Source of the DNA: Komarekiella atlantica HA4396-MV6
GTDB lineage: Bacteria > Cyanobacteriota > Cyanobacteriia > Cyanobacteriales > Nostocaceae
Assembly: GCA_019359395.1 (NCBI GenBank)
Contig: JAHHHK010000019.1
Coordinates: forward strand, 62,001 to 126,000
Reading direction: 5' to 3'
DNA: 64,000 nucleotides
Shown: piece by piece, positions 981 through 19,076 of the stretch
Position numbering within the stretch: position 1 is the first letter of the stretch
Layout: the number at the start of each line of letters is the position of its first letter
The notes under the pieces: model-generated
Seen by the model: only the letters and a program-made list of their open reading frames with translations
What the model was told of the DNA's origin: nothing
The model's database searches: none
Program-made: the position numbers and the translations under genes

Positions 981-2846
981 ATGCTAGAGAACCTTATACC
1001 AAGTATCTCCCGGCAACATCTGAATCAATTTCCTACCTTAACTGCTCTTTTACGTCACAGAGCACTATACCAGCCAGATCAAATTGCTTTTATTTTTTTG
1101 CAAGACGAAGAGACAGAATCAGCTCGCTTAACTTATCGAGAGTTAGACCAACAGGCTCAGGCGATCGCTGTTCAATTACAATCAATTAAAGCAAGTAGTG
1201 AGCGCGCATTACTGCTCTACCCACCAGGATTAGACTACATTGCTGCGTTTTTCGGATGTTTATATGCCAATGTAGTGGCTGTTCCGGCTTATCCACCCCG
1301 CCGGAATCAGAAAATGTCTAGGCTGATGGCGATCGTGAGAGATGCTCAGGCTACAGTAGCACTCACTACTACATCTGTGTTGACCAACTTAAAGGATAGA
1401 TTTTCTGAAACTCCAGAATTGTCTTCACTACGTTGGTTAGCAACCGATAATCCCAACGAACAAGCGTTAGACTGGCAAGAACCAAAAGTTAGCAGCGACA
1501 CGCTGGCATTTCTGCAATACACTTCAGGTTCTACAGGAATACCCAAGGGTGTAATGGTTACTCATGGCAACCTGCTACATAATTCAGAATTAATCCATAA
1601 CTCTTTCGAGCATACATCCAAGAGTTGGGGATTAATTTGGTTGCCACCTTACCACGACATGGGGTTGATTGGTGGAGTGCTACAGCCACTTTACGGTGGT
1701 TTTCCGGTAACATTTATGTCACCCGCAGCCTTTCTTCAAAAACCGATTCGTTGGTTAAATGCGATTACTCGTTATAAAGCGACTACCAGCGGCGGCCCCA
1801 ATTTTGCTTATGAATTATGTGTTCAAAAAATTACGCCAGAACAACGAGAAGGCCTTGATTTGAGCAGTTGGGAAGTAGCTTTTAATGGTGCTGAGCCGAT
1901 TCGTCCTGATACACTAGATCGGTTTGCTGCAACTTTCGAGCCTTGTGGTTTCCGCCGAGAAGCATTTTACCCCTGCTATGGGATGGCTGAGACAACACTC
2001 ATCGTCACCGGGGGTTTGAAAAAAGCCGCTCCTGTTGTCTGCTCCGTTAAAAAGGAAGATATTGAGCAAAACCGAGTAGTAGTAGCTACTCCTGAAAAAG
2101 AAGAGGTCAGACAAATTGTCGGTTGCGGACAAGAATTGTCTAACCAAGTTTTGATCGTTGACCCTGAATCCTTAACTCGCTGTGCATCTGGTCAAGTGGG
2201 AGAGATTTGGGTATCAGGTTTGAGTGTGGCTCAAGGCTATTGGAATCGACCAGTAGAAACACAAAAAGCTTTCAATGCTTTCCTTGCTGACACTGGAGAG
2301 GGCCCGTTTCTGCGTACAGGAGACTTAGGCTTTTTACAAGATGGCGAGTTGTTTGTTACCGGACGAATCAAAGATGTGATTATTATCCGGGGTCGCAACC
2401 ATTATCCTCACGATATTGAACTGACAGTAGAACAAAGTAACCTGGTACTAAAACCAAGTTCTGGTGCGGTGTTCACCGTGGAAGTAGAGGGTAAAGAGCG
2501 ATTAGTTATTGTTCAAGAGGTAGAGCGGAATTATCTCCGAAAACTGGATGTGAATAAAGTGGTTGGAGATATTCGTCAAGCGGTGGCGACAGAACATGAA
2601 CAGCAAGTTTATGCTGCGGTACTGGTGAAGACTGGAAGTATTCCCAAAACTTCGAGTGGTAAGATTCAGCGTCATGCTTGTCGAGCTGCTTTCTTGACTG
2701 GAAGTTTGGATGTAGTGGAGGATTGGAGCGAGAATCCTCAGAGCAAAACAAAGTTTGTGCATTTGAATGCTGAAGTTGATTCTCTGTTGCAGCAATTGCA
2801 GACTTCTAAAATTTCAAGTGATACAAAGTCTCTAAAAGTAGATTGA
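981..2846 (+). CDS. Fatty acyl-AMP ligase (FAAL)
   Basis: A 621-residue stand-alone adenylate-forming enzyme. Motifs in order are YTSGSTGIPKGVMVTH (A3, about residue 180), the FAAL-type segment around SGGPNFAYELC, CYGMAET (A5), TGDLGF/TGRIKD (A7/A8) and a C-terminal SGKIQRHACR containing the catalytic Lys. FAALs activate free fatty acids as acyl adenylates and pass them to the phosphopantetheine arm of an ACP rather than to CoA. It is followed by three desaturases and two small ACPs on the same strand, so its acceptor is probably one of those ACPs. It resembles the first 580 residues of the fusion at 13808. The acyl chain length cannot be read from the sequence. Confidence 0.93.
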   Translation: MLENLIPSISRQHLNQFPTLTALLRHRALYQPDQIAFIFLQDEETESARLTYRELDQQAQAIAVQLQSIKASSERALLLYPPGLDYIAAFFGCLYANVVAVPAYPPRRNQKMSRLMAIVRDAQATVALTTTSVLTNLKDRFSETPELSSLRWLATDNPNEQALDWQEPKVSSDTLAFLQYTSGSTGIPKGVMVTHGNLLHNSELIHNSFEHTSKSWGLIWLPPYHDMGLIGGVLQPLYGGFPVTFMSPAAFLQKPIRWLNAITRYKATTSGGPNFAYELCVQKITPEQREGLDLSSWEVAFNGAEPIRPDTLDRFAATFEPCGFRREAFYPCYGMAETTLIVTGGLKKAAPVVCSVKKEDIEQNRVVVATPEKEEVRQIVGCGQELSNQVLIVDPESLTRCASGQVGEIWVSGLSVAQGYWNRPVETQKAFNAFLADTGEGPFLRTGDLGFLQDGELFVTGRIKDVIIIRGRNHYPHDIELTVEQSNLVLKPSSGAVFTVEVEGKERLVIVQEVERNYLRKLDVNKVVGDIRQAVATEHEQQVYAAVLVKTGSIPKTSSGKIQRHACRAAFLTGSLDVVEDWSENPQSKTKFVHLNAEVDSLLQQLQTSKISSDTKSLKVD

Positions 2847-3000: not shown

Positions 3001-3975
3001 ATGTCAATGCAGCTTGATCGTGCCATACCAGCCGAACTGCTGGTAAATCCTAGTGCAAAAAAAAGTATCACCATCAAGAGTGATTACCTGAGAACGCCGC
3101 AGCGGCTTCATGCTTTAGCTCTTTTGTGGATTCCTTTACTGGGTTCAGTAGCCGCACTAGCGATCGCTTTTTACTCAGGGATAGGTGCAGTGGAGATCGG
3201 ATTGTTAGTGAGCATGTATATCTTGACTTTGGTAGGAATTACCGTAGGTTTTCATCGCCACTTTGCACACACTGCCTTTCAGACTAGCACTGCTGTCCGG
3301 GTTATCTTAGCTATCTTGGGATCTATGGCTTGTGAAGGGCCGCTAACTTATTGGGTGAGCAATCATAGACGCCACCACCAATATAGCGATCGCCCCGGAG
3401 ATCCTCATTCACCATTTTTCCAAGAAAGTGAATCCCTAGGCGGGTTACGAGGGCTATGGCATTCACATATCGGTTGGATGTTTAAGCACGAAATCACCAA
3501 CACTTTCTTATTCACTAAAGACCTGCTTCGCGATCCGGTTATTTCTAAGGTCAACCAACTTTATTACGTTTGGGCTTTACTGGGTCTAGCTATACCCACC
3601 ATTTTGGGAGGAATTCTTACAGGAACGATTATGGGTGCAGTATCGGGATTTCTCTGGGGTGGTTGCGTTCGATTATTCCTGATATTTCACTTCACCAGCA
3701 GTATTAACTCCATCACTCATTTATCTGGCAACCGTCCTTTTGATACCAAAGAACATAGTAGAAACAACATTTGGCTAGCTATTCCCACAGGTGGAGAAGC
3801 TTGGCATAACAACCACCACGCTTTTTCAAACTCAGCAATTTTCGGGTTGAAATGGTGGCAAATAGATTTTGGTTTCTACGTGATTTGGGTATTAGAAAAA
3901 GTCGGCTTAGTCTGGGATGTCAAGAAGCCTACAGCTCAGATGATCGAGTCTAAACTCAAGGCTAAAAACAATTAG
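3001..3975 (+). CDS. Fatty acid desaturase 1 (DesC/JamB-like)
   Basis: A 324-residue membrane di-iron desaturase of the acyl-CoA/delta-9 type. Three histidine boxes are intact: HRHFAH (85-90), HRRHH (122-126) and HNNHHA (269-274). Hydrophobic pairs lie at about 40-85 and 190-225. It is first of three paralogues in a row, 45 bp before the next. In cyanobacteria related enzymes either desaturate membrane lipids at delta-9 or, beside a FAAL and a small ACP as in JamABC-type modules, act on acyl-ACP to give alkenes or alkynes. The FAAL/ACP context favours the second role, but regiochemistry cannot be assigned. Confidence 0.93.
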   Translation: MSMQLDRAIPAELLVNPSAKKSITIKSDYLRTPQRLHALALLWIPLLGSVAALAIAFYSGIGAVEIGLLVSMYILTLVGITVGFHRHFAHTAFQTSTAVRVILAILGSMACEGPLTYWVSNHRRHHQYSDRPGDPHSPFFQESESLGGLRGLWHSHIGWMFKHEITNTFLFTKDLLRDPVISKVNQLYYVWALLGLAIPTILGGILTGTIMGAVSGFLWGGCVRLFLIFHFTSSINSITHLSGNRPFDTKEHSRNNIWLAIPTGGEAWHNNHHAFSNSAIFGLKWWQIDFGFYVIWVLEKVGLVWDVKKPTAQMIESKLKAKNN

Positions 3976-4020: not shown

Positions 4021-4983
4021 ATGACCACTCAAACAGTAAAAGTCTGGCGCAAGAAAAGCAAAACTATAGAGAATCAAAGCCTCCAAAATCTCCAAAGACG
4101 TTTTGCTTTGGGTACTGTATTAGTCCCCACCATAGGTTTTGTTGCTGCTATTGCCCTACTTTGGTTTACAGGTATTAGTTCAGTAGAAATCGGTCTGTTT
4201 GTGGGCATGTACATCGTAACTGTTGGTGCAACTGAAGTGGGTTTTCATCGACACTTTGCCCATAGATCCTTTGAGGCAAAACCGACAGTACGAGCAATCC
4301 TGGCAATCCTGGGGTCGATGGCGGGTCAAGGGCCTGTCATTTACTGGGCAGCTACCCATCGTCACCACCACCAGCACAGCGATCTGCCTGAAGATCCTCA
4401 TTCACCTTACATTCACGAAGGTAAGCAATTAGGTTGGTGGCACGGCTTATGGCATTCTCACATTGGCTGGTTCTTCAGCAGCAAGATGACAAATGCCGTG
4501 TTCTTTGCCAAAGACTTAATTCAAGATCCTCTAATTGTCAAGATTAGTCAGTTGTATTTAGTGTGGATCATCATCGGTCTTGCTATCCCCGCTGTTCTCG
4601 GAGGAATTATCACCTGGACATGGATGGGAGCCTTGAAAGGGTTATTGTGGGGTGGCTTCGTGCGGATGTTTGTAGGACAGCACGCCACTTGGAGTATTGG
4701 CTCAGTGGCTCACATTTGGGGCAACCGTGCTTTTGATACCCGTGAACATAGCAGAAACAATTTCTTACTGACTATACCTACCTTGGGCGGAGGATGGCAC
4801 AACAACCATCATGCCTTTCCTAACTCTGCGCTCGCTGGTTTGGAGTGGTGGCAAATTGATCCAACTGGCTGGACAATTCAAGCGCTAGAAAAGCTGGGCT
4901 TAGCCTGGGATGTGAAAAGACCTACACAACGCTTGATTAATGCCAGAAAAAAGAATCCGTCTGAATCTTCAGTAGATTTGTAA
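4021..4983 (+). CDS. Fatty acid desaturase 2 (DesC/JamB-like)
   Basis: A 320-residue paralogue of the preceding desaturase. Histidine boxes are HRHFAH (76-81), HRHHHQHSD starting at 113, and HNNHHAF starting at 260. It shares the core WHNNHHAFPNSAL and the C-terminal AWDVKRPT-type ending with its neighbours, but its first ~25 residues are different. A stem-loop (5005-5027) lies after its stop, before desaturase 3. Three non-identical copies suggest sequential or position-specific desaturations of one acyl chain rather than gene dosage. This is an inference from context. Confidence 0.92.
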   Translation: MTTQTVKVWRKKSKTIENQSLQNLQRRFALGTVLVPTIGFVAAIALLWFTGISSVEIGLFVGMYIVTVGATEVGFHRHFAHRSFEAKPTVRAILAILGSMAGQGPVIYWAATHRHHHQHSDLPEDPHSPYIHEGKQLGWWHGLWHSHIGWFFSSKMTNAVFFAKDLIQDPLIVKISQLYLVWIIIGLAIPAVLGGIITWTWMGALKGLLWGGFVRMFVGQHATWSIGSVAHIWGNRAFDTREHSRNNFLLTIPTLGGGWHNNHHAFPNSALAGLEWWQIDPTGWTIQALEKLGLAWDVKRPTQRLINARKKNPSESSVDL

Positions 4984-5004
4984 CCTCACAGCTTGCAGCA
5001 ATTT

Positions 5005-5027
5005 AAAGGGCGGGTGAGACGCCCTTT
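5005..5027 (+). terminator. Stem-loop between desaturases 2 and 3
   Basis: Perfect 8-bp arms AAAGGGCG (5005-5012) and CGCCCTTT (5020-5027) with a 7-nt loop. There is no T-run after the stem, so it may be an mRNA-processing or stabilising hairpin within the operon rather than a true terminator. Confidence 0.4.
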
Positions 5028-5064
5028 CCACAAATACAACAAGTAAAAATCAAAAAGGTGAAAA

Positions 5065-6066
5065 ATGGAAGTTTTGAATTCGCAAATACCTGAGATATCT
5101 ATGGTTGCAAGTGCTGACAATTCGTATACAGAAACTCAAGCCAAAGTCAAGAGACAGAAAAAAACTGTCACAAGTAGCTACCTGAAAACTTTACAGCAGA
5201 TTCATGCCCTGACAGTTGGCTTAGTCTCTTGTTTAGGATTTGTGATTGCAGTGGCGCTATTGCTAGCAGGAAATACCCTCAGCCCCATCGAGATTGGAAC
5301 TTATCTAGCGCTGACAGTTATAATTGGCATCGGTACTACAGCCGGATTTCATCGACACTTTACCCATAAAAGCTTTCAAGCAGCAATGCCCGTGCGGGTT
5401 GTCCTTGCCGTCTTGGGATCGATGGCTGCACAGGGGCCGTTAATTTTCTGGGTAGCATTGCATCGATTGCATCATGAACATAGCGATCGCCCTGGCGACC
5501 CTCATTCACCCCATTTTCATGGAAAAGGTTTTTTTGGGATGCTACGAGGGCTATGGCACGCACACTTCGCCTGGACAATCGATTATGACGCTCCCAATGC
5601 AACTTACTACGCCAACGATTTATTGCGAGATAAAATCCTCTCAAAAGTCAGCCAGATGTACTTCCTCTGGGTATTCCTGGGTTTTTTGATTCCCACAGTT
5701 GCGGGGGGTTTCCTTAGAGGTTCTTGGACAGGTGCTTTCTACGGTTTCCTCTGGGGTGGACTGGTAAGACTTTTCTTTTGGCATAACATGGTTTGGTGTA
5801 TTACCTCAGTTGCACACGTCTTTGGTAGTCGTCCCCTGGAAAGCCATGACATGAGTACAAACAACTTTCTGTTAGCTATCCCCACATTAGGCGAATCTTG
5901 GCACAACAATCACCATGCTTTCCCTAACTCAGCAATGGCAGGGTTGAAGTGGTGGCAAATTGACCCAAGTGGCTGGGTAATTCGCGCACTGGAAAACCTG
6001 GGCTTAGTTTGGGATGTTAAGACGCCGACAGCACGCATGATGGAAGCTAAAACCAGAACCGCCTAA
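5065..6066 (+). CDS. Fatty acid desaturase 3 (DesC/JamB-like)
   Basis: A 333-residue third paralogue with boxes HRHFTH (96-101), HRLHHEHSD starting at 133 and HNNHHAF starting at 280. It has a longer, Lys/Gln-rich N-terminus (about 40 residues) than the other two. The second box has Leu-His-His in place of the Arg/His-rich form of copies 1 and 2, so it is the most diverged of the trio in that region. It is predicted to be an integral membrane protein. It sits immediately upstream of the duplicated ACP genes, which supports an acyl-ACP substrate. It could instead be an ordinary lipid desaturase; context is the only discriminator here. Confidence 0.92.
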   Translation: MEVLNSQIPEISMVASADNSYTETQAKVKRQKKTVTSSYLKTLQQIHALTVGLVSCLGFVIAVALLLAGNTLSPIEIGTYLALTVIIGIGTTAGFHRHFTHKSFQAAMPVRVVLAVLGSMAAQGPLIFWVALHRLHHEHSDRPGDPHSPHFHGKGFFGMLRGLWHAHFAWTIDYDAPNATYYANDLLRDKILSKVSQMYFLWVFLGFLIPTVAGGFLRGSWTGAFYGFLWGGLVRLFFWHNMVWCITSVAHVFGSRPLESHDMSTNNFLLAIPTLGESWHNNHHAFPNSAMAGLKWWQIDPSGWVIRALENLGLVWDVKTPTARMMEAKTRTA

Positions 6067-6394
6067 TTCAACTGTTAAGCCGTCGCGTATCTATCCCAAG
6101 TAGAAAGCATAGAAGTTAAATCATGTCTGGTTAATCAAGCTGAATAAAAAAGTTCGTTTGTAGTTAGGGCTTTAGTCCTGACTTTGGGGGCTGAAGTCCC
6201 CACTACAAACTGCTTATTATCGGTGATTTGGCAGACATCATAATTAAATGCGCGATCGCTTAACAAATCTCTCTAAATGCATATTCCCAAATGCATAAAA
6301 CTCAGAAGATTAACTGATTAATAACTAAAGGAAGCAATTCAAATCCTGAATGCAGATTTAGTTCAAAGACAACACCCCAAAGGAGATTTTTACA
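6067..6394. other. Intergenic region before ACP 1
   Basis: No gene. Contains a dispersed inverted-repeat element (6157-6209), one HIP1 site, and the leader of ACP 1 with an AAAGGAG-type ribosome binding site about 12 bases before the ATG at 6395. Confidence 0.6.
6157..6209. repeat. Small inverted-repeat element (TTTGTAGT...ACTACAAA), copy 1
   Basis: A 53-bp element with terminal 8-bp inverted repeats and internal sub-hairpins (AGGGCTTTAGTCCT and GGGGCTGAAGTCCCC). A diverged copy lies at 12721-12767 after the GMC oxidoreductase gene. Both copies sit in intergenic spacers of the same cluster. Confidence 0.75.
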
Positions 6395-6697
6395 ATGGCT
6401 ATCCAACAAGTGTCTACAATTTCACTACCTGACAACGCTACAATAGATGCAGGTAAACAACCCTTAACCAACGCAGAGATTCAAGCATGGTTGATTTCTT
6501 ATCTATCTGAACTACTAGAAATCGACCAATCTGAAATTGATGTCAACGTTCCCTTTGAGCGCTACGGTTTAGACTCCTCAGCTGCCATTGGCTTGACTGG
6601 TGACTTAGAAAATTTGTTGGGATACGAATTAGAACCAACCATCTTGTACGATTACCCAACTATTGAAGTTTTATCTGAGCAGTTAGTGGCAGCCTAA
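6395..6697 (+). CDS. Acyl carrier protein 1
   Basis: A 100-residue stand-alone carrier protein. The phosphopantetheine site is YGLDSSAAIG with Ser61 as the likely attachment residue, followed by the typical helix-III end YDYPTIEVLSEQL. It is not the housekeeping AcpP, being less acidic and having a 25-residue N-terminal extension, and it resembles carrier domains that partner FAALs. It is nearly identical to ACP 2 (three substitutions over the last 90 residues). It probably receives the acyl adenylate made by the FAAL at 981 and presents it to the desaturases and the methyltransferase. Confidence 0.93.
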   Translation: MAIQQVSTISLPDNATIDAGKQPLTNAEIQAWLISYLSELLEIDQSEIDVNVPFERYGLDSSAAIGLTGDLENLLGYELEPTILYDYPTIEVLSEQLVAA

Positions 6698-6765
6698 ACT
6701 AACTCATAAATCGGCATTGCACCAACAAAGGATGAAATTGATGTATTGATCTCTAAAACTCCTCA

Positions 6766-6905
6766 TCCTCTCTGCGCCTCTGTCTTGAAAAGTTTCCTAC
6801 GGTTCGCGTTAGCGTCTCGTAAGAGAGGGAAACCCTCCTTCTCCTGACGGAGACCGGAGGCGAACAGAACTTTTCGCTGCGCCTCTGCGTGAGACAAATT
6901 CATAT
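6766..6905. repeat. Dispersed GCAGAG-type repeat, copy 1
   Basis: A block containing GCGCCTCTGTCTTGAAAAG, GTTAGCGTCTCGTAAGAGAG and CGCCTCTGCGTGAGACAAAT. The same arrangement occurs at 34984-35148, and diverged relatives lie at 37925-38105, 51137-51265 and 56580-57010. It separates the two ACP genes. A minus-strand frame through it encodes the same spurious peptide as the other copy. Confidence 0.8.
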
Positions 6906-6985
6906 TCACAATCAGCAACACCCATAAATCAATCCCAACAATCAGATTCATTAGTAATTATTCTGTCATCAATTGAGGTAACACA

Positions 6986-7291
6986 ATGAACACTCTAACC
7001 ACTCCCTCTACAACTTCACTACCTGACAACGCTACAACAGATGCAGGTAAACAACCACTAACCAACGCAGAGATTCAAACATGGTTAATTTCTTATCTAT
7101 CTGAACTACTAGAAATCGACCAATCTGAAATTGATGTCAACGTTCCTTTTGAGCGCTACGGTTTGGATTCCTCAGCCGCCATTGGTTTAACTGGTGATTT
7201 AGAAAATTTACTGGGATACGAATTAGAACCAACCATCTTGTACGATTATCCGACTATTGAAGTTTTATCTGAGCAATTAGTGGCAGTCTGA
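6986..7291 (+). CDS. Acyl carrier protein 2 (recent duplicate)
   Basis: A 101-residue carrier protein with the same site YGLDSSAAIG (Ser62). From the common SLPDNAT onward it differs from ACP 1 only at about three positions, so the duplication is recent or is kept uniform by gene conversion. The first ~10 residues differ. Its leader contains TGTCATCAATTGAGGTAA (6964-6981), which is repeated exactly before the methyltransferase start (7456-7473), suggesting a shared translation-initiation region. Two carriers could serve two loading enzymes or raise flux. Confidence 0.93.
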   Translation: MNTLTTPSTTSLPDNATTDAGKQPLTNAEIQTWLISYLSELLEIDQSEIDVNVPFERYGLDSSAAIGLTGDLENLLGYELEPTILYDYPTIEVLSEQLVAV

Positions 7292-7477
7292 ACTAACTCA
7301 TACAGCAATTTTAAAATGAATAGACTACATTTTTACCTCACGCAGAGACGCAGAGACGCAGAGAAAGAAGAATGCTCTGATGTTGTAGTCTAAACAAATG
7401 AAAACTGCTGTGAACCATCCCGCTTTCCCAAGAATCAGATTAATTCGCAATATTTTGTCATCAATTGAGGTAATACT

Positions 7478-8350
7478 GTGACCACTTTAACAACTCAGAA
7501 TCCCGGTGCATCAGCAGAGGCAATTCAGCATCACTACGACGTAAGCAATGAGTTTTACAGACTTTGGCTTGATTCTACTAACACTTATTCAGCCGCGCTT
7601 TGGGAAGATAATGACACCCTAGAGTTGGCGCAGATTAGAAAACTTGACTATCATATCAATCAAGCTAGAGCTAGCAATGCTAAACGAGTTTTAGATGTCG
7701 GCTGTGGCTGGGGTTCTACACTCAAACGCTTGGTAGAAGTACATGGTGTTCAGCAAGCTGTAGGTTTAACTTTAAGCAATAGCCAAGCAGAGTGGATTTC
7801 GTCATTCAACCAGCCACAAATTGATGCCAGGGTAGAGAGCTGGTCAGACCATGTTCCCACAGCGCCTTATGATGCAATTATTTCCATTGGTGCATTTGAA
7901 CACTTTGCTCAGTTGAATCTTTCTCAAGATGAGAAAATAGCAGGTTATCGGGCATTCTTCCAACGGTGTCATGAGTGGCTGCAACCAGGGGGATGTATAT
8001 CGCTCCAGAGCATTTCCTATGAGAATTCTCGCCGTGAAGACTTCAGCCAGTTCTATGCTAATGAAATTTTCCCAGAATCAGACTTACCTCGTTTAGCAGA
8101 CATTGCCACAGCAAGTGAGAGACTTTTTGAGGTTGTGGCGCTGAGAAATGACCGCGAACACTATGCACGTACACTGAGAGCTTGGCAAAAGGGGCTGAAA
8201 GCCAACCGCACAGCAGCAGTCAATCTGGTTGGTGAAGAAGTAGTCAGCCGCTATGAAAAATACCTGAAATTTTCGATCATCGGTTTCCATGTAGGGACTA
8301 TGGGACTATTACGAGTTACACTGCGACGCATAGATAATCCTCGTGATTGA
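7478..8350 (+). CDS. CFA-synthase-type SAM methyltransferase
   Basis: A 290-residue member of the cyclopropane-fatty-acid/mycolic acid methyltransferase family. Visible features are the N-terminal HHYDVSNEFYRLWLD segment, the SAM-binding motif VLDVGCGWGS (about 67-76), GLTLSNSQ, and a C-terminal RTLRAWQKGL...LVGEEVV region ending in FHVGTMGLLRVTL. The start is GTG, chosen because a GAGG ribosome site precedes it within the duplicated 18-bp leader. Such enzymes add a methylene or methyl group across a double bond, so it plausibly works on the product of the upstream desaturases. Whether the result is a cyclopropane or a methyl branch cannot be told. Confidence 0.88.
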   Translation: MTTLTTQNPGASAEAIQHHYDVSNEFYRLWLDSTNTYSAALWEDNDTLELAQIRKLDYHINQARASNAKRVLDVGCGWGSTLKRLVEVHGVQQAVGLTLSNSQAEWISSFNQPQIDARVESWSDHVPTAPYDAIISIGAFEHFAQLNLSQDEKIAGYRAFFQRCHEWLQPGGCISLQSISYENSRREDFSQFYANEIFPESDLPRLADIATASERLFEVVALRNDREHYARTLRAWQKGLKANRTAAVNLVGEEVVSRYEKYLKFSIIGFHVGTMGLLRVTLRRIDNPRD

Positions 8351-8355
8351 TTAAA

Positions 8356-8423
8356 GTAGAGACGTTGCAATGCAACGTCTCTACGAAATAATGGGTTTTT
8401 TCGCCCCTGAATCGGTGTTCTAG
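8356..8423. repeat. Dispersed palindrome plus tail, copy 2
   Basis: The GTAGAGACGTTGCA palindrome (8356-8384) is followed by a tail, through GAATCGGTG, that closely matches the sequence after the palindrome at 24125-24153. The repeated unit is therefore about 70 bp and not only the hairpin. It lies between the methyltransferase and the PKS gene. Confidence 0.85.
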
Positions 8424-8457
8424 AAACACGAGCAATTAAATAAGTAGAGATGTTGAA

Positions 8458-10941
8458 ATGGAACCCATAGCTATTATTGGAATTGGCTGTCGGTTTCCCG
8501 GTGCTGAGAACCCAGAGTCATTCTGGGATCTTCTGCGGTCTGGTGGAGACGCCATCACAGAAGTGCCGTCAGACAGATGGGATATCGATACTTTCTATGA
8601 CCCTAATCCAGGTATACCAGGCAAAATGAGCACCCGCTGGGGGGGCTTTCTAAATCAAGTAGATCAATTTGATCCAGGTTTTTTTGGGATTTTGCCACGC
8701 AGAGCCAAGCTAATAGACCCTCAGCATAGATTGGTACTAGAAGTTGCCTGGGAAGCTCTAGAAGATGCTGGAGTAGTACCAGCAAAGCTGGCTGGTAGCA
8801 AGACAGGAGTATTTATTGCTATTAGCCATAATGATTACGACAGAATTATATGCAAGGATATCTCTCGCGTCAATGCTCACCACGGCCCCAGCACCTATCA
8901 TTGCATTGCCGCCAATCGCCTGTCTCATCTGTTAGATCTACGCGGCCCAAGTATGGCTGTAGATACTGCTTGTTCTTCGTCACTGGTTGCGGTACATTTG
9001 GCCTGCCAGAGCTTACGGACTGGAGAATCCCAGATGGCGCTAGTTGGTGGGGTAAGTTTGATTCTATCCCCGGAAGAGACGATCGCTTCTTCTCATGCAC
9101 GTGTCATGGCTCCAGATGGTCGCTGCAAGACTTTTGACGCCAGCACTAATGGTTATGTTAGGGGTGAGGGTTGCGGTGTAGTTGTTCTCAAGCGCCTTGC
9201 TGATGCTGTTAGAGACAAAGATAATATCCTGGCTGTAATTAAAGGCTCAGCAGTTAACCAAAATGGTCTTGGTAATGGACTGACAGCATTCAATGGCCCG
9301 GCTCAGCAAGCAGTAATTTTCCAAGCTCTGGAAAACGCCGAAGTCGCACCTGCCGAAATTAGCTATGTTGAAGTTCACGGTACTGGCACTCCTTTAGGAG
9401 ATCCTATTGAGGCTAATGCTTTAAAAACAGTGCTGATGCGAGATCGTTCACTAAATCAGCCTTGTTGGATTGGCTCGGTTAAGACGAATATCGGCTATCT
9501 GGAATCTGCTTGTGCAATGGCTAGCTTGATTAAGGTGGTTCTCTCACTCAAACATCAAGAAATTCCAGCGCATCTACACCTGGAAAATCTAAATCCCCGC
9601 ATTTCTTTAGCAGGGACTCCGATTTCTATCCCCACTGAGTGTCAACCTTGGTCTGTTGATACAGCACCCCGCCGAGCCGGAATTAGCGCTTTTGGTTTTG
9701 GTGGCACTAATAGCCATTTAATCCTGGAAGAAGCGCCCGTTTTGCCTACGGCAGTTAGTGATAGCAAACGCCCTGTACACCTATTAACTCTATCTGCAAA
9801 AAGTGAAAAAGCATTGCGGGAACTCGCAACCCGTTATGAAACCTATTTGCAGTCTCACACTGAAGTGGCTTTGGAAGATGTTTGTTTTACTGCTAATGTA
9901 GGGCGATCGCATTTTCCCTATCGTCTGGCTGTGGTAACACAGTCTACCACGCAACTGCGTGAGCAACTAAGTGCTTTCGTTGCAGGAAGGGAGACTGTCG
10001 GATTAGCCAGCAGTCAGGGACAAACCCCCAAGAGTCGGAAAATAGCGTTTTTATTCAACGGTCAGGATTCTCAGTATGTCAACATGGGACGGCAATTATA
10101 CGAAACTCAGCCCGTCTTCCGCCAAACTTTAGATCGTTGCGATGAAATTCTGCGTCCCTATTTAGAAAAGTCTCTCCTAGAAGTTCTTTATCCTGTATCT
10201 GATAAAACTTTACATCTAACTAAAAATACTTATAATCAACCAGCTTTATTTGCTTTAGAGTATGCACTAGCTAAATTATGGCAGTCGTGGGGCATAAAAC
10301 CTTCATCTGTCACGGGTTACGGTGTAGGGGAATATGTCGCTGCTTGTGTTGCTGGGGTTTTTAGCTTGGAAGATGGACTGAAGTTGATTACAGCAAGGGC
10401 TGGTTTGATGCACATACCTTTAGCGCAGGTAGCAGCAACAATTCAATCTGCCGTTAATGGTTGCAATGCGTTAGCTACTTTGCCAACCACAGTCAAGGAA
10501 ACGCGATATACATTTAAGCAAATAGCTCAAGCTGTAACTTACTCAACCCCTAATATAGATATAGTTTCCAGTTTTACTGGCAAGCTGGTTACAGATGAGA
10601 TTGCTACCCCTGATTATTGGTTTAACCATTTGCAGCAGTCAGAGAGATTTGCATCTGGCTCTGAGCAAGGTTCTGATATATACCTAGAAATTGAAGAAGT
10701 TGCTCAATACGGCTCGTCAGATAACTTGGAACTACAACTTCCCGGTCTATGTCAAGCACAATCAGATTGGCAACAAATACTTGAGAGTTTACGGGAATTA
10801 TACTTACTCGGTGCATCGGTAGACTGGTCGAACTTTGACCGAGACTATCCATATCGTCGTCTCCAACTGCCGACTTATCCATTCCAGCGTCAGCGTTATT
10901 GGATTGAAGAAACTGACAGTCCTACTGAGCTGTCTCGCTAA
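8458..10941 (+). CDS. Type I polyketide synthase protein, KS plus degenerate AT
   Basis: An 827-residue protein. The KS domain (about 1-425) has the active-site Cys172 in DTACSSSL and His307 in [10 protein letters not shown], but the third catalytic position reads KTNIGYLES with Tyr347 where a His is expected. The following AT region starts with [12 protein letters not shown] (usual GQGSQ) and has GYGVG at 620-624 where GHSxG is expected, so Gly622 replaces the nucleophilic Ser. The segment that normally carries AFHS is absent. The frame then rejoins a normal post-AT linker ending YPFQRQRYW. No KR, DH, ER or ACP domain is present. Chain extension would need a trans-acting AT, or the protein may act as a non-elongating acyltransferase or scaffold. 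Confidence 0.9.
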
Positions 10942-11060
10942 GTCTGCAAACTTTTGATACAAAAATATTTGCGAATAGATAAAATTGCCATTAAGTTCTA
11001 ATTAATAACAATTTTATCTGGTATAAACAAGAGAATAATTACCAGGTGTGTGGGAAATTC

Positions 11061-12683
11061 ATGCTTGATAAAAAGCCCTACGGGCGGCGCAATTTTTTGC
11101 AAAGTGCTGCCTTGTTTTCTGCTGGGTTAATGACTTCATTAGGCACAGCTAATCTAGCTAGAGCTAGTGATGAGTCTGTGGATGCTTTAGTGATTGGGAG
11201 TGGTTTTGGTGGTGCTGTTGCAGCTTTGCGTTTAGGGCAAGCTGGTATCAAAACACTACTGATAGAACGTGGTCGTCGTTGGCCAATTACACCCCAACAA
11301 AACACCTTTGCGACATTTCGGCAACCTGATGGTCGTGCTGCGTGGTTGAGTCCGGTAACTTTTTTTGGCGATCGCGTACCTATCTACACAGGTGTTCTAG
11401 AGACTAAAATCGAAAACGGCGTTGCTGTACTGTGTGGCGCTGGGGTTGGCGGTGGCTCGTTAGTCTACAACGGCTATACTTATCAACCTTCCCGCGAACT
11501 CTTCTATCGTGTCTTTCCTAAAGATATTGACTACGACCAGATGGATACAGTTTATTATCCTCGTGTCCGTTCTGTTCTCAAGCCAGCAATAATTCCTCAA
11601 GATATTTTGGCTAGTAGCTACTACTTGTCAACCCGGCTGTTTCTTAAGCAAGGAGCAGATGCCGGATTACCCAGTCGTTTATTAGATGTAGCCGTAGATT
11701 GGGATGTGATTCGCCAAGAAATCCAAGGAACCAAAGTTCCTGGCGCTATTATTGGCGAACATTGGTACGGTATCAATAGTGGAGCAAAAAATAGTCTAGA
11801 TCGTAACTATTTAGCTCAGGCTGAGCAAACTGGGAATGTAGAGATTCTGCCTTTACATTTAGCAACAACAATCTCGGAAGTTCCTGGACATGGTTATCGA
11901 GTTTCCTGCAACCAAATTAACGAGTATGGAGAAATTATTGCTAGTAAAACTATTACTTGTCGATATCTATTTTTAGCTGCTGGTTCTATGGGAACCTCTG
12001 CGCTTTTAGTTAAAGCCAAGGCTACAGGTACACTACCGCGTTTAAATAACTACATTGGTTTAGAGTGGGGAACCAATGGAGATGCTTTAGCTGGTCGTTC
12101 AGGTTTGCCAAAACCTACCAACCCAGGACAAGGTGGGCCAGGAACTTCAGTTATTGAATACTTCGATAACCCCTTCGGCCCCATCGCCATTCAATTAGCC
12201 CCCACATGGAATGCTCCCGATGGATTCTTGCGAACGGTAAGCTTTGCAATTCCTTCTGTTAAAGGCAAATTTAACTACGATTACACAACAGGTTCAGTCA
12301 AACTTAACTGGCCAGATAGTGGTAACGGTACAGGAGATCCAAAAGTCTTACAACTAACGAAGTTTGCATTCAAATTGCTAGATCGAAAAAATGCAATTTC
12401 CAGTTTCCAACCACAAACAGATGTAGCGCTGGGTAGTCACAGTTATCAAAAAAATCCAGTTAAAAGTGGAGCGATTTTCACTCTGACTGCTCATCCTCTA
12501 GGTGGAGCAGTTTTAGGAAAAGCCTGCGATTTCTACGGTCGAGTTTCTGGTTATCAAAGACTGTATGTAGTTGATAGCGCACTCATCCCCGGCTCGACAG
12601 GTTGCACAAATCCCTCTTTCACCATTGCGGCTTTAGCAGAGCGCTGCTTAGAACGGATTTTGGCAGAAGATATTCTTAAATAA
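11061..12683 (+). CDS. Tat-exported GMC-family oxidoreductase (cholesterol-oxidase-like)
   Basis: About 540 residues from the ATG at 11061; an in-frame GTG lies 15 bases upstream. A twin-arginine signal GRRNFLQSAALFSAGL is followed by an Ala-x-Ala-like site (LARA). An FAD-binding Rossmann motif VIGSGFGGAVAA follows directly, then GAGVGGGSLVYNG and a C-terminal HPLGGAVLG...VVDSALIPGSTGCTNPS region typical of cholesterol oxidase-like GMC enzymes. These flavoenzymes oxidise alcohols using a C-terminal His. Export as a folded flavoprotein puts the reaction in the periplasm. In this cluster it could oxidise a fatty alcohol made by the terminal reductase; this is an inference. Confidence 0.85.
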   Translation: MLDKKPYGRRNFLQSAALFSAGLMTSLGTANLARASDESVDALVIGSGFGGAVAALRLGQAGIKTLLIERGRRWPITPQQNTFATFRQPDGRAAWLSPVTFFGDRVPIYTGVLETKIENGVAVLCGAGVGGGSLVYNGYTYQPSRELFYRVFPKDIDYDQMDTVYYPRVRSVLKPAIIPQDILASSYYLSTRLFLKQGADAGLPSRLLDVAVDWDVIRQEIQGTKVPGAIIGEHWYGINSGAKNSLDRNYLAQAEQTGNVEILPLHLATTISEVPGHGYRVSCNQINEYGEIIASKTITCRYLFLAAGSMGTSALLVKAKATGTLPRLNNYIGLEWGTNGDALAGRSGLPKPTNPGQGGPGTSVIEYFDNPFGPIAIQLAPTWNAPDGFLRTVSFAIPSVKGKFNYDYTTGSVKLNWPDSGNGTGDPKVLQLTKFAFKLLDRKNAISSFQPQTDVALGSHSYQKNPVKSGAIFTLTAHPLGGAVLGKACDFYGRVSGYQRLYVVDSALIPGSTGCTNPSFTIAALAERCLERILAEDILK

Positions 12684-13807: not shown

Positions 13808-16800
13808 ATGAAATTTTCTACTTTAATAGATCTGCTGCATTATCGGTCTTTAGATACACATAATCAAAAAAATTATACTTATCTCCAGGATGGTGAAACA
13901 GAAGCAGGTAGTTTGAATTATCAAGAATTGGAGCTAAAAGCACGAGCGATCGCAGCTGCTCTCCAGTCTCTAAATGCTACTGGCGAACGAGTATTATTAC
14001 TATATCCACCTGGTCTAGAATTTATTGCTGGTTTCTTTGGGTGTTTGTATGCAGGGGCGATCGCAATTCCGGCTTATCCACCCCGGCCGAATCAGTCGCT
14101 TTCTAGACTTCAGGCGATCGTCGCAGATAGTCAGGCAAAACTAGCCCTCACCACCACACCTCTACTAGCATACTTACAAGGTCGCTTTGCTGAAAATCCA
14201 GAATTGGCAAAGATTCACTTACTAGCTACCGATAACATTACCAGTGATTTAAGCGCAGATTGGCAAAAACCCACAGTCAGCGGCGATCATCTCGCTTTTC
14301 TTCAGTACACTTCTGGCTCTACGGGAACACCCAAGGGGGTGATGATTAGTCATGATAATTTGCTGCACAATTTGGCTATAAGTCATCAAGCAGGTGAGTT
14401 TACCTCTGATAGCCACACGGTTACTTGGCTGCCATTTGGTCACAACACAGGATTGCTCACTGGAGTTATACAGCCTCTTTACAGCGATTTTCCTGTGACG
14501 ATCATGTCACCGCTGGACTTTTTACAGAAACCTTGGCGCTGGTTGATGGCAATTACCCGTTACAAAGCAACTCAAAGTCTTGCCCCTAATTTTGCTTATG
14601 ATCTTGCCTGTTTCCAGACTACTGCTGAACAACGGGCAATGCTTGATTTGAGTAGCTGGGAATTGGCTGTCAGCGGTGCTGAGCCTGTGCGTGCAGAAAC
14701 TCTAGATCGATTTGTCGCCACCTTTGAACCCTATGGCTTTCGCCGAGAGGCATTTAATCCGGCTTATGGGATGGCTGAAAACGTGGTGGGGATTTCTTTA
14801 GGTTTCAAAAAACAGCTACCAATTGTCCATAATATTGAGAAGGCTGCACTAGAGCAAAACCGGGTTGTGGTAGAAGTTGGTGAAAGCCGAAGCACTCAGA
14901 AAATTGTTAGTTGCGGTCGCACTTGGTTAGATCAGAAAATACTCATTGTTGACCCTGAATCTTTAACCCCATGTCCAGCCAATCAAGTAGGAGAGATTTG
15001 GGTATCAAGTCCGAGTGTAGCTCAAGGCTATTGGCAGCAACCGGAAGCAACAGAGAAAACCTTTCACGCTTATCTAGATACGGGTGTCGGCCCATTTTTG
15101 CGTAGTGGCGATTTAGGATTTTTGCTTGATGGTGAATTGTTTGTCACAGGTCGTCTTAAAGACTTAATTATTATCCGGGGTCGTAACCATTATCCTCAAG
15201 ATATTGAATTGACTGTAGAAAAAAGTCACCCAGCCCTGCAACCGAGTTGTGGCGCTGCTTTTTCGGTGGAAGCCGAGAGTGAGGAACAACTAGTCATTAC
15301 TCAAGAAATCAAGGAAACTGATTTAGAAAAGTTAGATGTAGATCAGGTGGTTAAAGCCATCCGTCAAGCAGTATTGCAGCAGCATGAGCTACAAGTTTAC
15401 GCTGTATTGCTGCTAAATACTGGCAGTATCCCGAAAACTTCGAGTAACAAAATTCAGCGCCATGCATGTCGGGTGGGATTTTTGGATAGTAGCCTTGATG
15501 TGATAGGTCAGTGGCATTTGACGGAAAGTAAGTTTTATGCGTCGCCACAAGCGGAAATTTCTCACCAACAGGAGTTTGAACAACAGCCTCAAACAGTAGA
15601 AACCATTCAAGCCTGGTTAGTTCATAAGATTTCCCAGCAGCTCAAAATTAATCCACAAGATATAGATGTTCGGGAATCCTTAACCAGCTATGCACTGGAT
15701 TCTGTACAAGCTGTGAATATTTCAGGTGAGTTGGAAAATTGGCTGGGACGGAAATTTTCACCAAGTTTGTTATGGGACTATTCTACGATTGAAAAACTCA
15801 CACAGCATTTAGTTAGTGGGTCTGAGGTGTCTGACCTAGATTCGAGTATGGATTGGAACGCCGAGGTTGTGCTAGATCCGACAATTTGTCTTGGTAATAG
15901 ACAGGTTGAATTAGTAACAGAACCCGCTGCTATTTTCTTAACTGGCGCAACTGGTTTTTTGGGTGCATTTTTAATTCAAGAACTCTTAGACAAGACTCAG
16001 GCAGACATTTATTGTCTAGTGCGTTCTGCCAATGATGAGTCAGGCAAGATGAGGATTCAAAAGAATCTAGAATCTTATGAACTTTGGCATGAAAATTATA
16101 GTTCCAGAATTATCCCAGTTTTGGGTGATATATCTCAATCCCAATTGGGTCTTGAAGATGAACAATTTCAAAAGCTAGCCAGTCAGATTGATACTATCTA
16201 TCACGGTGCAGCTTTATTGAACTATGTGTTTCCCTACGAACGATTTAAGCCGATCAACGTTTTGGGAACTCAAGAAGTACTAAGATTAGCTAGTCAAGTT
16301 AAGGTTAAGCCAGTTCATTACATTTCTAGCGTTGCAGTTTTTGAGTCATCTGCTTATGACCAAAAAGTAGTAACCGAATCCGATCAACTCGCTCATAGTG
16401 AGGGGATGTACTTAGGTTACTCCCAGAGTAAATGGGTAGCAGAAAAACTAGTGATGATGGCGCGTGACCGAGGGCTGCCAGTTTGCATTTACAGACCTCC
16501 TTTTATTTCTGGGCATAGTCAAACAGGCGTTTGGAATACGGATGATATTATCTGCCGGATGATTAAAACCTGTATTGAGATGGGCAGTATAGCAGACTTA
16601 GACCAAAAGTTAGACTTATCTTCTGTGGACTATGTTAGCCAAGCAATTGTCTATTTATCGAGACAAAAAGAGTCTTTGGGTAAAGCTTTTCACTTGAGTA
16701 ATCCGCAACCAATTAACTGGAAAAAGTTCGGGGATTTGCTGCGGTCTTTTGGTTATAAAATTGAGCAGCTTTCCTATGAAGATTGGCAAGCACAGTTAGA

Positions 16801-17053
16801 AAATAATGTGCGATCGCCTGAAAATCCTTTATATCCCCTGCTGCCTTTCTTTGTTAAAAAATGGACTGAAAAACAACTCACCATTACTGAAATATATCAG
16901 CAATCTAGAAGAATGCAGATTAATTGTCAAGAAACACTTACCGCACTTGCAAACACTGACATTGTATGTCCTCCCGTGGATAGTAATTTGCTGAATACCT
17001 ATCTTTCCTACTTCAAACGTAGTGAGTTTTTAACAGTAAACAGTAATCAGTAA
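13808..17053 (+). CDS. FAAL-ACP-thioester reductase fusion
   Basis: A 1081-residue three-domain enzyme. Residues 1 to about 585 are a FAAL (YTSGSTGTPKGVMISH, LAPNFAYDLA, AYGMAEN, SNKIQRHACR). Residues about 595-675 are a carrier domain with YALDSVQ and Ser632 as the phosphopantetheine site. Residues about 700-1075 are a thioester reductase of the NAD_binding_4/male-sterility type, with GATGFLG (713-719), YISSVAVF and YSQSK (Tyr871, Lys875). The order activation-carrier-reductase matches that of carboxylic acid reductases, so it can be read as a self-contained enzyme turning an acid into an aldehyde or alcohol. It may instead release a chain built by the upstream proteins. It ends the operon and its 3' end runs into the tandem array. 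Confidence 0.92.
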   Translation: MKFSTLIDLLHYRSLDTHNQKNYTYLQDGETEAGSLNYQELELKARAIAAALQSLNATGERVLLLYPPGLEFIAGFFGCLYAGAIAIPAYPPRPNQSLSRLQAIVADSQAKLALTTTPLLAYLQGRFAENPELAKIHLLATDNITSDLSADWQKPTVSGDHLAFLQYTSGSTGTPKGVMISHDNLLHNLAISHQAGEFTSDSHTVTWLPFGHNTGLLTGVIQPLYSDFPVTIMSPLDFLQKPWRWLMAITRYKATQSLAPNFAYDLACFQTTAEQRAMLDLSSWELAVSGAEPVRAETLDRFVATFEPYGFRREAFNPAYGMAENVVGISLGFKKQLPIVHNIEKAALEQNRVVVEVGESRSTQKIVSCGRTWLDQKILIVDPESLTPCPANQVGEIWVSSPSVAQGYWQQPEATEKTFHAYLDTGVGPFLRSGDLGFLLDGELFVTGRLKDLIIIRGRNHYPQDIELTVEKSHPALQPSCGAAFSVEAESEEQLVITQEIKETDLEKLDVDQVVKAIRQAVLQQHELQVYAVLLLNTGSIPKTSSNKIQRHACRVGFLDSSLDVIGQWHLTESKFYASPQAEISHQQEFEQQPQTVETIQAWLVHKISQQLKINPQDIDVRESLTSYALDSVQAVNISGELENWLGRKFSPSLLWDYSTIEKLTQHLVSGSEVSDLDSSMDWNAEVVLDPTICLGNRQVELVTEPAAIFLTGATGFLGAFLIQELLDKTQADIYCLVRSANDESGKMRIQKNLESYELWHENYSSRIIPVLGDISQSQLGLEDEQFQKLASQIDTIYHGAALLNYVFPYERFKPINVLGTQEVLRLASQVKVKPVHYISSVAVFESSAYDQKVVTESDQLAHSEGMYLGYSQSKWVAEKLVMMARDRGLPVCIYRPPFISGHSQTGVWNTDDIICRMIKTCIEMGSIADLDQKLDLSSVDYVSQAIVYLSRQKESLGKAFHLSNPQPINWKKFGDLLRSFGYKIEQLSYEDWQAQLENNVRSPENPLYPLLPFFVKKWTEKQLTITEIYQQSRRMQINCQETLTALANTDIVCPPVDSNLLNTYLSYFKRSEFLTVNSNQ

Positions 17054-17645
17054 ACAGTAATCAGTTTTTGTCTGACCACTGTTTACTGTTGACTCTTGAC
17101 TGTTCACTGTTTGAAAGTAATCAGTTTTTGTCTGACCACTGTTTACTGTTTACTGTTTACTGTTCACTGTTTGGAAGTAATCAGTTTTTGTCTGACCACT
17201 GTTTACTGTTGACTCTTGACTGTTCACTGTTTGAAAGTAATCAGTTTTTGTCTGACCACTGTTTACTGTTGACTCTTGACTGTTCACTGTTTGAAAGTAA
17301 TCAGTTTTTGTCTGACCACTGTTTACTGTTGACTCTTGACTGTTCACTGTTTGAAAGTAATCAGTTTTTGTCTGACCACTGTTTACTGTTTACTGTTCAC
17401 TGTTTGAAAGTAATCAGTTTTTGTCTGACCACTGTTTACTGTTGACTCTTGACTGTTCACTGTTTGAAAGTAATCAGTTTTTGTCTGACCACTGTTTACT
17501 GTTTACTGTTCACTGTTTGAAAGTAATCAGTTTTTGTCTGACCACTGTTTACTGTTTACTCTTTACTGTTCACTGTTTGAAAGTAATCAGTTTTTGTCTG
17601 ACCACTGTTTACTGTTTACTCTTTACTGTTCACTGTTTGGAAGTA
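17054..17645. repeat. Tandem array of 60/53-bp units made of heptamers
   Basis: Ten copies of a unit beginning TCAGTTTTTGTCTGACCACT start at 17061, 17121, 17181, 17241, 17301, 17361, 17414, 17474, 17527 and 17587. Unit lengths are 60 bp, or 53 bp in two cases, a difference of exactly one 7-mer. The second half of each unit is a run of 7-bp steps (CTGTTTA, CTGTTGA, CTCTTGA, CTGTTCA). Both long open frames across it (17068-17445 plus strand and 17150-17347 minus strand) are artefacts of this periodicity. It directly follows the stop of the FAAL-ACP-reductase gene. Confidence 0.95.
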
Positions 17646-17724
17646 AACTTATGGCTAATAGCTCAAGTCGTCTAAAAACGACTAGTAAAGCATCTGACGT
17701 TTTTTTCAATTAGGAGTTTACGGC

Positions 17725-18123
17725 ATGTTACCTGGGACTAGTTTGATAACTGTTTTAGCTTTAATTGTTTACTTTGGTATTACAGTCAATGTGTCTAGAA
17801 CTAGAGTAAAATTTAAGATTTTGGCTCCTCAGATATCAGGCAACCCTTACTTCGAGCGATCGCTGCGTATCCAGCAAAATACTGTAGAGCAACTAATCCT
17901 ATTTTTGCCTAGCCTCTGGTTATTCTCTTCATTTGTATCCCCAGTCTGGGCAAATGTAATTGGCGCAGTTTGGATCATAAGTCGCATTGTATATGCTTTT
18001 GGTTACTATCAAGCTCCTGAAAAACGGACTGTTGGTTTTGCGATTAGTGCCCTGATGATCCTAATACTGCTTTTAGGTTCTTTAGTAGGGATAATTCTAA
18101 CCCTAGTGAAAACTGGATTCTAG
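17725..18123 (+). CDS. MAPEG-family membrane protein
   Basis: A 132-residue integral membrane protein with four hydrophobic segments (about 6-20, 53-75, 77-92 and 102-128). It contains the family signature FERSLRIQQNTVEQ (about 44-57). MAPEG proteins are microsomal-type glutathione transferases and peroxidases acting on lipophilic electrophiles or lipid peroxides. A GAG-type ribosome site precedes the ATG. Glutathione peroxidase, peroxiredoxin-glutaredoxin and glutathione S-transferase genes lie downstream in the same 8 kb, which supports a glutathione-linked role. Confidence 0.88.
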   Translation: MLPGTSLITVLALIVYFGITVNVSRTRVKFKILAPQISGNPYFERSLRIQQNTVEQLILFLPSLWLFSSFVSPVWANVIGAVWIISRIVYAFGYYQAPEKRTVGFAISALMILILLLGSLVGIILTLVKTGF

Positions 18124-19076
18124 CGTAATTCGTAATATTTCGGCTACTTCTCTACGAGAGGCTGCGCCAACGACTACGCGGTAGTTGAGCGTAGCCGAAA
18201 CTCAGCACAAGTTCACTCTGGGGCTACGCCCCGCTCATTGGTGTCAACTTAGGCTCAAACGATTACCCCAAAGGCATTTACCCCACCCCTTAATCTCTTC
18301 CCCTTGCTAAGGCTACGGTGTACACACAAGTCGGAAAAATCTCATCACCAAAGATTTGCAGTATTGCAATAACGGCGAACGCATTTGCTACTTCGGCGCT
18401 CGCATTTGCTATTTCGGCGAACTAATTTGCTATTTTGGCGATCACATTTGCTATTTCGGCGCTCGCATTTGCTATTTCGGCGCTCGCATTTGCTATTTCG
18501 GCGAACTCATTTGCTACTTCGGCGAACTCATTTGCTACTTCGGCGAACTCATTTGCTACTTCGGCGAACTCATTTGCTACTTCGGCGAACTCATTTGCTA
18601 CTTCGGCGAACGCATTTGTTGTACACCGTAGCCTTGCTAAGGGAAGGGGCGGTTTTGTCTAAAGCCAAAACCCAAAACTGGGGTGAGGTGACGCGGCTCG
18701 TGATGGGAAGTGAGTGAATTTAAGATTAGGTCTTGACAAGGGTTTCGCGTTAAATTGATACCAATGCGCCCTACTACGCTCTAAGCGTAGCTATGCCGCA
18801 GATTTTACGTAACTCGTAATCGGCTATCTTTTTTGTAAAAGTTGTCCTTTGCCGCCATAAGCTTGTACAATATTTTTTTGGGCGTTCTCCTCCATACAAC
18901 TTCTCCATAGATTTAGTTGCTATGCAGCGGCTCAATAATTGTTGAAATTGGAGATGAGAACAAAATTGGATTAGCTACCGCCAAAAAGCTGGTTCATCAA
19001 AGAGATTTGAGAAAACATGCAGCCGATATAGGGTTGTATCACTCATAATTAAGTTGATTGTCCACCAAAACGTTGT
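18124..19076. other. Repeat-rich intergenic region
   Basis: No supported gene over about 950 bp. It contains a 21-bp tandem array bracketed by inverted repeats (18311-18633) and short hairpin-rich sequence near 18140-18230 (for example GGGGCTACGCCCC). The last ~350 bp before the J-domain gene show no clear feature beyond AT-rich promoter-like sequence. Confidence 0.6.
18311..18633. repeat. 21-bp tandem array bracketed by a 13-bp inverted repeat
   Basis: Eleven full 21-bp units and a partial twelfth (18381-18620), core CATTTGCTACTTCGGCG, with the five units from 18507 almost identical. Because 21 is a multiple of three, all plus-strand frames stay open, giving false ORFs such as 18356-18631. 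The block is framed by GGCTACGGTGTAC (18311-18323) and its exact reverse complement GTACACCGTAGCC (18621-18633). Confidence 0.93.

Follow-up and report, generated by a model that had tools for sequence, protein, structure and literature searches.

INTRODUCTION

In a biosynthetic gene cluster, a 'KS-AT' gene normally stands for one C2 extension per module. The ketosynthase (KS) is recognised by a Cys-His-His triad, a cis-acting acyltransferase (AT) by the serine of its GHSxG motif and the histidine of its AFHS motif, and a KSQ loading didomain by the replacement of the KS Cys by Gln. Among solved structures, the closest in sequence to the protein described here (850.9 bits) is the cis-AT KS-AT didomain of CurL (4mz0). 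The mycobacterial mycolate system has a further arrangement, made up of FadD32, CMAS and Pks13.

Departures from the one-module-one-extension rule have been described. KS0 domains, as defined in PMC4661987, have lost the His of HGTGT and are expected to pass chains on, and PMC12081711 describes pepstatin PepC as having a truncated AT. Papers on the noc system report that the genes run from nocL to nocQ, with NocP termed a simple PKS (PMC5333925), that NocP and NocQ carry matching docking domains (PMC12184294), that NocO chlorinates a dodecanoyl chain on NocM (PMC12101540), and that C12:0 is the substrate of the fatty acyl-AMP ligase (FAAL), NocG being the protein that joins two acyl chains in nocuolin (both in PMC11837247). 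In PMC9557163, chlorosphaerolactylate B is synthesised from 12-bromododecanoic acid; this precursor and the C12:0 substrate indicate that the acid of the lactylate is not extended. The literature covered on inactive or truncated ATs, non-elongating KSs and related clusters, most of it outside the subscription journals, describes no trimmed ATs for these cyanobacterial clusters.

RESULTS AND DISCUSSION

A KS-AT protein with an excised AT segment

The window analysed here, a stretch of 64,000 nucleotides from Komarekiella atlantica HA4396-MV6, contains on its + strand a frame (8458–10941) that opens with ATG and runs for 827 codons with zero internal stops (Table 1). A sequence-only reading of this DNA had noted a KS-AT protein with Cys172 and His307 in place, NIGY for NIGH, GYGVG for GHSxG, GQDSQ for GQGSQ, the AFHS region missing, and an uninterrupted frame with a normal post-AT linker. 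All of this was confirmed. Scripted motif positions placed the start of DTACSSS at residue 169, HGTGT at 307, NIGY at 344, GQDSQ at 535 and GYGVG at 620, and a phmmer alignment with CurL paired NIGY with NIGH, GQDSQ with GQGSQ and GYGVG with GHSVG. The KS triad therefore reads Cys172, His307, Tyr347 in place of Cys-His-His, the AT has neither the GHSxG serine nor the AFHS histidine, and the presence of Cys172 sets the protein apart from KSQ loading didomains. Judged from these residues, neither extension nor malonyl loading would be expected of it, as the reading had proposed.

Table 1. Features of the window, in window coordinates
Feature	Position	Strand	Basis or comment
Fatty acyl-AMP ligase (FAAL), proposed to load ACP1 and ACP2	981–2846	+	Pfam/NCBIfam
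Three fatty-acid desaturases	3001–3975, 4021–4983, 5065–6066	+	PF00487
Two near-identical ACPs	6395–6697, 6986–7291	+	Translation and similarity to ACPs of related clusters
CMAS-type SAM methyltransferase	7478–8350	+	PF02353
KS-linker-AT remnant protein, 827 aa	8458–10941	+	ORF; Pfam/NCBIfam; orthologues in 5/5 genomes of the genus
KS domain, residues 1–426	8458–9735	+	Pfam ketoacyl-synt N and C; pairwise dN/dS 0.04–0.11
Cys172 codon (KS nucleophile, retained)	8971–8973	+	Cys in 46/46 trimmed rows
His307 codon (HGTGT His, retained)	9376–9378	+	
Tyr347 codon (replacing the NIGH His)	9496–9498	+	CurL alignment; Tyr in 5/5 orthologues
AT remnant, residues 527–790	10036–10827	+	Partial Pfam Acyl_transf_1; relaxed dN/dS 0.19–0.42
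Gly622 codon (replacing the AT serine; GYGVG)	10321–10323	+	Motif position; CurL alignment
Excision site, residues 653–690	10414–10527	+	Length relative to canonical relatives; low model confidence at 653–678
Post-AT linker (YPFQRQRYW), retained; no ACP after it within the protein	10828–10938	+	
GMC oxidoreductase	11046–12683	+	PF05199/PF00732; twin-arginine-like N-terminus by eye
Protein without family match	starts 12838	+	PEP-CTERM-like C-terminus by eye
FAAL-ACP-thioester reductase; may provide the acceptor ACP and release the chain	13808–17053	+	Intact in 2/5 genomes

The loss of AFHS is an internal excision that leaves parts of the AT on both flanks. Residues 654 to 685 of the protein span CurL residues 713 to 795, and the segment bounded by the alignment columns of residues 652 and 690 is 38 residues long, as against 83–98 in 126 of 134 distinct FHS-bearing relatives (49–79 in the other eight); some 50 residues net, AFHS included, have thus been lost, and no FHS motif is left. 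Pfam Acyl_transf_1 matched over profile positions 2–121 of 319 only (residues 531–652); besides the KS and AT families and a weak thiolase match, Pfam found nothing further in the protein. An AlphaFold2 model built from 53 sequences (its own or from the loci studied) had a mean pLDDT of 85.3 and a pTM of 0.85. Low confidence (pLDDT <50) centred on the excision site (653–678) and also affected residues 730–737, 748–756 and 821–827. The top solved structure returned by Foldseek was again CurL (TMq 0.88 over 881 columns), and the order of domains (KS, linker, AT, post-AT linker) and the predicted overall fold are those of a cis-AT protein with a shortened AT. The protein thus resembles CurL in retaining the KS-AT and post-AT linkers, and differs from it in lacking the AT serine and the AFHS segment and in having Tyr for the NIGH His.

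It shares with KS0 domains a retained KS Cys, the loss of one catalytic His and the lack of a working AT; unlike them, it keeps the HGTGT His (in 5/5 orthologues), has the NxGH His replaced and carries a recognisable cis-AT remnant. The NCBIfam Pks13 model (NF040607) was the second-best match, at 600.8 bits against a cut-off of 2100. As in mycobacteria, a FAAL, a CMAS-type methyltransferase and a KS-AT occur in one cluster; unlike Pks13, this KS-AT has no fused thioesterase or ACP and its AT is dead.

Gene neighbourhood and orthologues

The genes of the cluster (FAAL, desaturases, ACPs, methyltransferase, KS-AT, GMC oxidoreductase, the 12838 gene and the FAAL-ACP-thioester reductase) all lie on the + strand. 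Pfam and NCBIfam scans of nine cluster proteins revealed no ketoreductase (KR), dehydratase (DH) or second KS. The ACP-reductase half of the last gene shares 59% identity with another ACP-reductase frame (∼500 codons; C71:221851–223335), which the genome encodes separately, near other KS genes. Two tandem arrays lie beside the cluster, at 17056–17646 (60-base unit, 10.1 copies) and 18373–18618 (21-base unit, 11.7 copies).

An orthologue (91–100% identity) was found in each of the five genomes of the genus examined, this one included; the other four are apparently Komarekiella delphini-convector, aff. Roholtiella LEGE 12411, Nostoc sp. B(2019) and Nostoc sp. MG11. When 84,980 species were scanned, the 80 best matches listed included no others above 61% identity, and the best match in a plasmid collection was 57% identical. 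All five orthologues have NIGY, GY[GA]VG and no AFHS; the AT motif is GYGVG in three of the other four and GYAVG in one, and the GQGSQ motif drifts between GQDSQ, GQNSE, DQSSE and GQGSE. Since NIGY, the serine-less AT and the missing AFHS recur in four other genomes, they reflect neither chance nor sequencing error. The sequence-only reading had held that orthologues with canonical motifs or broken frames would mark a lone decaying gene; instead, all five frames are intact and carry the changes.

The whole cluster is present in two of the five genomes. At locus L041 (genome G002) the FAAL-ACP-reductase is absent and there is a single ACP; at L126 the same gene is a 122-codon remnant. At L042, in Nostoc sp. 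B(2019), the FAAL is down to 137 aligned bases, an ACP fragment remains, the locus has no desaturase, methyltransferase, GMC or reductase gene, and the KS-AT frame is intact; neither the methyltransferase nor a full reductase was found elsewhere in that genome. A universal acceptor role for the FAAL-ACP-reductase was rejected, as the gene is intact in 2/5 genomes. The L042 region (4819–9157), in which deletion of the lipid cluster has left an intact KS-AT as an orphan, is a natural experiment on KS conservation.

Constraint on the KS and on the AT remnant

Pairwise dN/dS values for the KS (0.04–0.11 over the five orthologues, and 0.04–0.06 among the four genomes that have the cluster core) place the frame under selection, as the reading had supposed. 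They are much like those of the FAAL, desaturases, CMAS, GMC and reductase genes (0.01–0.10); those for the 12838 gene were 0.10–0.21, and the whole AT remnant was relaxed. Lineage-unique changes, taken as plain counts over five sequences without a fitted model, came to 5 non-synonymous and 55 synonymous in the KS, summed over the four cluster-core lineages, against 6 and 11 in L042 (two-sided Fisher test, P = 0.012). For the AT remnant the counts were 22:32 in the four lineages and 7:7 in L042 (P = 0.56), and in the four cluster-core lineages the KS differed from the AT remnant (P = 5 × 10–5). The KS is less constrained in the cluster-less L042, which suggests that its constraint is tied to the presence of the other cluster genes.

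Besides H347Y, six KS changes are fixed in the five orthologues (S79L, E82R, A230T, S272G, P278F and G353A), all seven being states absent from 48 other alignment rows of which at least 85% share one residue. Lone decay was rejected for the cluster-core genomes, given intact orthologues and low KS dN/dS; decay of the orphan KS-AT in L042 is a possibility.

Recurrent trimming of the AT among relatives

We read 181 distinct KS-AT sequences of near-full coverage, which fell into 46 trimmed rows (no FHS and a short segment), 134 canonical rows with FHS and one leftover (L111, no FHS, full length). All the trimmed rows have Cys at position 172. At position 307, 35 have His and 11 have Gln; at position 347, 41 have His and five, all of this genus, have Tyr; at position 622, four have the AT serine, which the other 42 lack. 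In the 134 canonical rows Cys172 and His307 are invariant, and His347 and Ser622 are each present in 133. One KS His is therefore missing from 16/46 trimmed rows versus 1/134 canonical ones, the exception being the L063 14251 frame, which has NIGN for NIGH with its AT serine and FHS intact. Both histidines persist in 30/46 trimmed rows, so trimming alone need not mean that condensation is lost; such copies, including L074, a KS-AT0-KR-ACP protein, may condense using malonyl supplied in trans. Tyr347 as a common variant was rejected (5/181 distinct rows, every one in this genus), and the Cys-His-Tyr triad was seen in this genus only.

The missing segment is much alike in every case, starting near where the RGRLM helix ends and stopping just short of the 'ITYSQP' stretch (alignment of 31 displayed rows, 27 of them trimmed), and trimmed copies retain 3–60 residues between the reference columns. 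Trimmed copies, each confirmed by sequence, turned up among the matches with E-values of 1e-260 or better in at least 26 of the 217 genomes scanned in the family; this is a lower bound, since no more than four candidates were scored per genome. Outside the family, carriers include Aliterella and sulphur bacteria (L058, L065, L099). The L099 protein (14863–19266) has, after its trimmed-AT KS, a second linker and a near-complete AT.

A single origin of trimming was rejected in two KS trees, both, like all trees here, from quick searches. The first held 78 rows, 33 labelled altered (two of which, L077_7180 and L090_14799, still have AFHS) and 45 of 123 others; the altered label needed 10 changes, at least six forced by starred branches (single origin, p-AU 0.00012). 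The second held 91 rows, the 46 strictly trimmed and 45 of the 134 canonical ones; trimming needed 12 changes, at least five of them forced (single origin, p-AU 3.5 × 10–6). In this tree the 16 rows without one KS His required three changes; Gln arose on two occasions, and placing all 11 Gln rows in a single clade was rejected (p-AU 0.0035). A clade uniting the orthologues of the window protein with the HAVGT paralogues (L002/L118) was not rejected (p-AU 0.90), nor was the same clade with the QGTGT clade of L017, L020 and L023 added (p-AU 0.68). A tree of the AT remnant only, with weak signal, forced one change, and an independent-pairs test of AT change with KS His loss, based on four pairs, was not significant. 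Trimming thus recurred, the window family and its same-genome paralogue may share one loss, and of the changes only Tyr347 is peculiar to the genus.

Related clusters with QGTGT ketosynthases

In L120–L122 His307 is replaced by Gln (QGTGT), NIGH is intact and the AT is trimmed and serine-less. The gene order is FAAL, ACP, one or two halogenase-like genes, a KS-AT-ACP protein and a TubC_N-C-A-KR-PCP-TE synthetase (domains checked in L120); in L120 and L122 a further gene of 539 codons separates FAAL from ACP. An acidic tail (...FEI, ...IEIEI) is found at the end of several ACP-bearing trimmed proteins and partner ACPs, which precede TubC_N proteins. The halogenase-like proteins had no match in Pfam, NCBIfam or the PDB. 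A similar protein lies beside FAAL, ACP and PKS/NRPS genes in Planktothrix; from this parallel, the gene order and published cluster descriptions, we take these proteins to be of the CylC type. The cluster descriptions behind the label are those in PMC8406957, PMC5333925 and PMC12101540.

By gene order and domains, L120–L122 fit lactylate clusters of the nocL–Q type. If they are such clusters, the unextended acid of the lactylates means that their trimmed KS-AT must hand the chain on unchanged. In common with these proteins, taken from gene order to be of the NocP/ClyE type, the window protein joins a KS to a trimmed AT that has no serine, and is encoded after a FAAL and free-standing ACP. They have QGTGT, NIGH, a C-terminal ACP (checked in L120), an acidic tail and a TubC_N NRPS partner, whereas the window protein has His307 and Tyr347, no ACP, no acidic tail and no adjoining TubC_N NRPS, and lies outside their clade.

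A non-elongating ketosynthase as the favoured reading

The reading that we consider rather probable, by analogy with the lactylate-type trimmed KS-ATs, is that the window protein is a non-elongating ketosynthase working as an acyl carrier station or shuttle. The FAAL would load a fatty acid onto the free-standing ACPs, where the desaturases and the CMAS-type methyltransferase would modify it. From there the chain would move to Cys172 and be passed, with no malonyl extension, to whichever carrier or enzyme comes next; in the two genomes where the FAAL-ACP-reductase gene is intact, this may be the ACP that it encodes. With the AT no longer needed, its serine and some of its fold would have disappeared, and what remains would serve as a structural spacer. 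We infer the transfer, its direction and its acceptor from what was kept and lost: the loading parts and one joining residue are gone and the chain-carrying Cys remains, so that the protein probably passes a fatty chain on unlengthened. Several facts count against a shuttle, namely an intact KS in three genomes without an intact candidate acceptor, the retention of His307, the 30/46 trimmed rows with both histidines and, for the analogy, the position of the protein outside the L120–L122 clade and its lack of a C-terminal ACP and acidic tail. Of what the sequence-only reading had suggested, selection for a non-canonical role is supported and acyl transfer is favoured; a purely structural scaffold is disfavoured by Cys172 in 46/46 distinct trimmed homologues.

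The retained His307 is also what would be expected if the KS still condensed, with Tyr347 partly replacing His and a separate AT such as FabD supplying malonyl-ACP. The genome has a 294-codon AT-like frame elsewhere (C8:133415–133783), taken for FabD by size, and the trimmed homologues with both histidines, the KR in L074 and the truncated AT described for PepC are compatible with such elongation in trans. We nevertheless regard it as unlikely, since the NIGH His is nearly invariant in canonical rows, neither KR nor DH was found among the scanned cluster proteins, and H347Y is accompanied by six further fixed KS changes. A KS acting as an O- or N-acyltransferase, with a hydroxyl or amine taking up the released chain in ester or amide form, would suit L041, where neither a reductase nor a second ACP is present and the KS is the last gene at the locus expected to handle acyl-ACP; with Pfam showing KS and AT families and a weak thiolase match only, this seems quite improbable.

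The gene content also recalls FadD32, CMAS and Pks13, and the Pks13 profile match, though under its cut-off, points the same way; two FAAL-supplied acyl chains would then be condensed and reductively released, much as NocG joins two chains in nocuolin. The second FAAL, however, is that of the FAAL-ACP-reductase, which is not intact in three of the five genomes where the KS frame is, and such a mycolate-like or nocuolin-like condensation is very improbable. The same missing pieces, the drifting AT motifs and the weaker KS constraint in the orphan copy could be read as a cluster being lost across the genus with the KS on its way out; against five intact frames and the low KS dN/dS of the four cluster-core genomes, we give this next to no credence.

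More tentatively, and with considerable doubt, the Cys-His-Tyr KS might be a dedicated acyl-transfer or ester-forming release enzyme in a new cyanobacterial pathway to cyclopropane or methyl-branched unsaturated lipids, amid a recurrent shedding of one and the same AT segment that turns KS-ATs into carriers. If, as is probable, the module adds nothing, product predictions made from 'KS-AT' would be wrong. The modules from which evolution has repeatedly removed one AT segment while leaving the KS Cys are natural candidates for ready-trimmed acyl shuttles, and the Cys-His-Tyr KS provides a natural test of the role of each catalytic histidine.

A second cluster in the same genome

The HAVGT paralogue (L002/L118) lies in a cluster with the order FAAL, desaturase, ACP, halogenase-like gene, KS-AT, ACP and TubC_N protein. 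Beyond these lie genes that resemble an SDR, an MGDG synthase, a GMC oxidoreductase and a mutase; ACP, TubC_N and MGDG_synth were called by Pfam, the FAAL, desaturase and upstream ACP by similarity to those of the window, and the rest by eye. The TubC_N protein that follows the trimmed KS-AT and ACP (L118 7221–9095; L045 14610–16466) has ∼620 aa with TubC_N at its N-terminus. The L118 copy had no other Pfam match and no NCBIfam match, and the protein possibly represents a new enzyme family. At L118 (G000:C62, 1235–16838), a second FAAL-desaturase-ACP-halogenase-like-KS-AT cluster of the genome studied here, the MGDG-synthase-like glycosyltransferase is accompanied by SDR, GMC oxidoreductase and UDP-galactopyranose-mutase-like genes (by eye), and from this gene content the cluster looks like a chlorinated glycolipid pathway.
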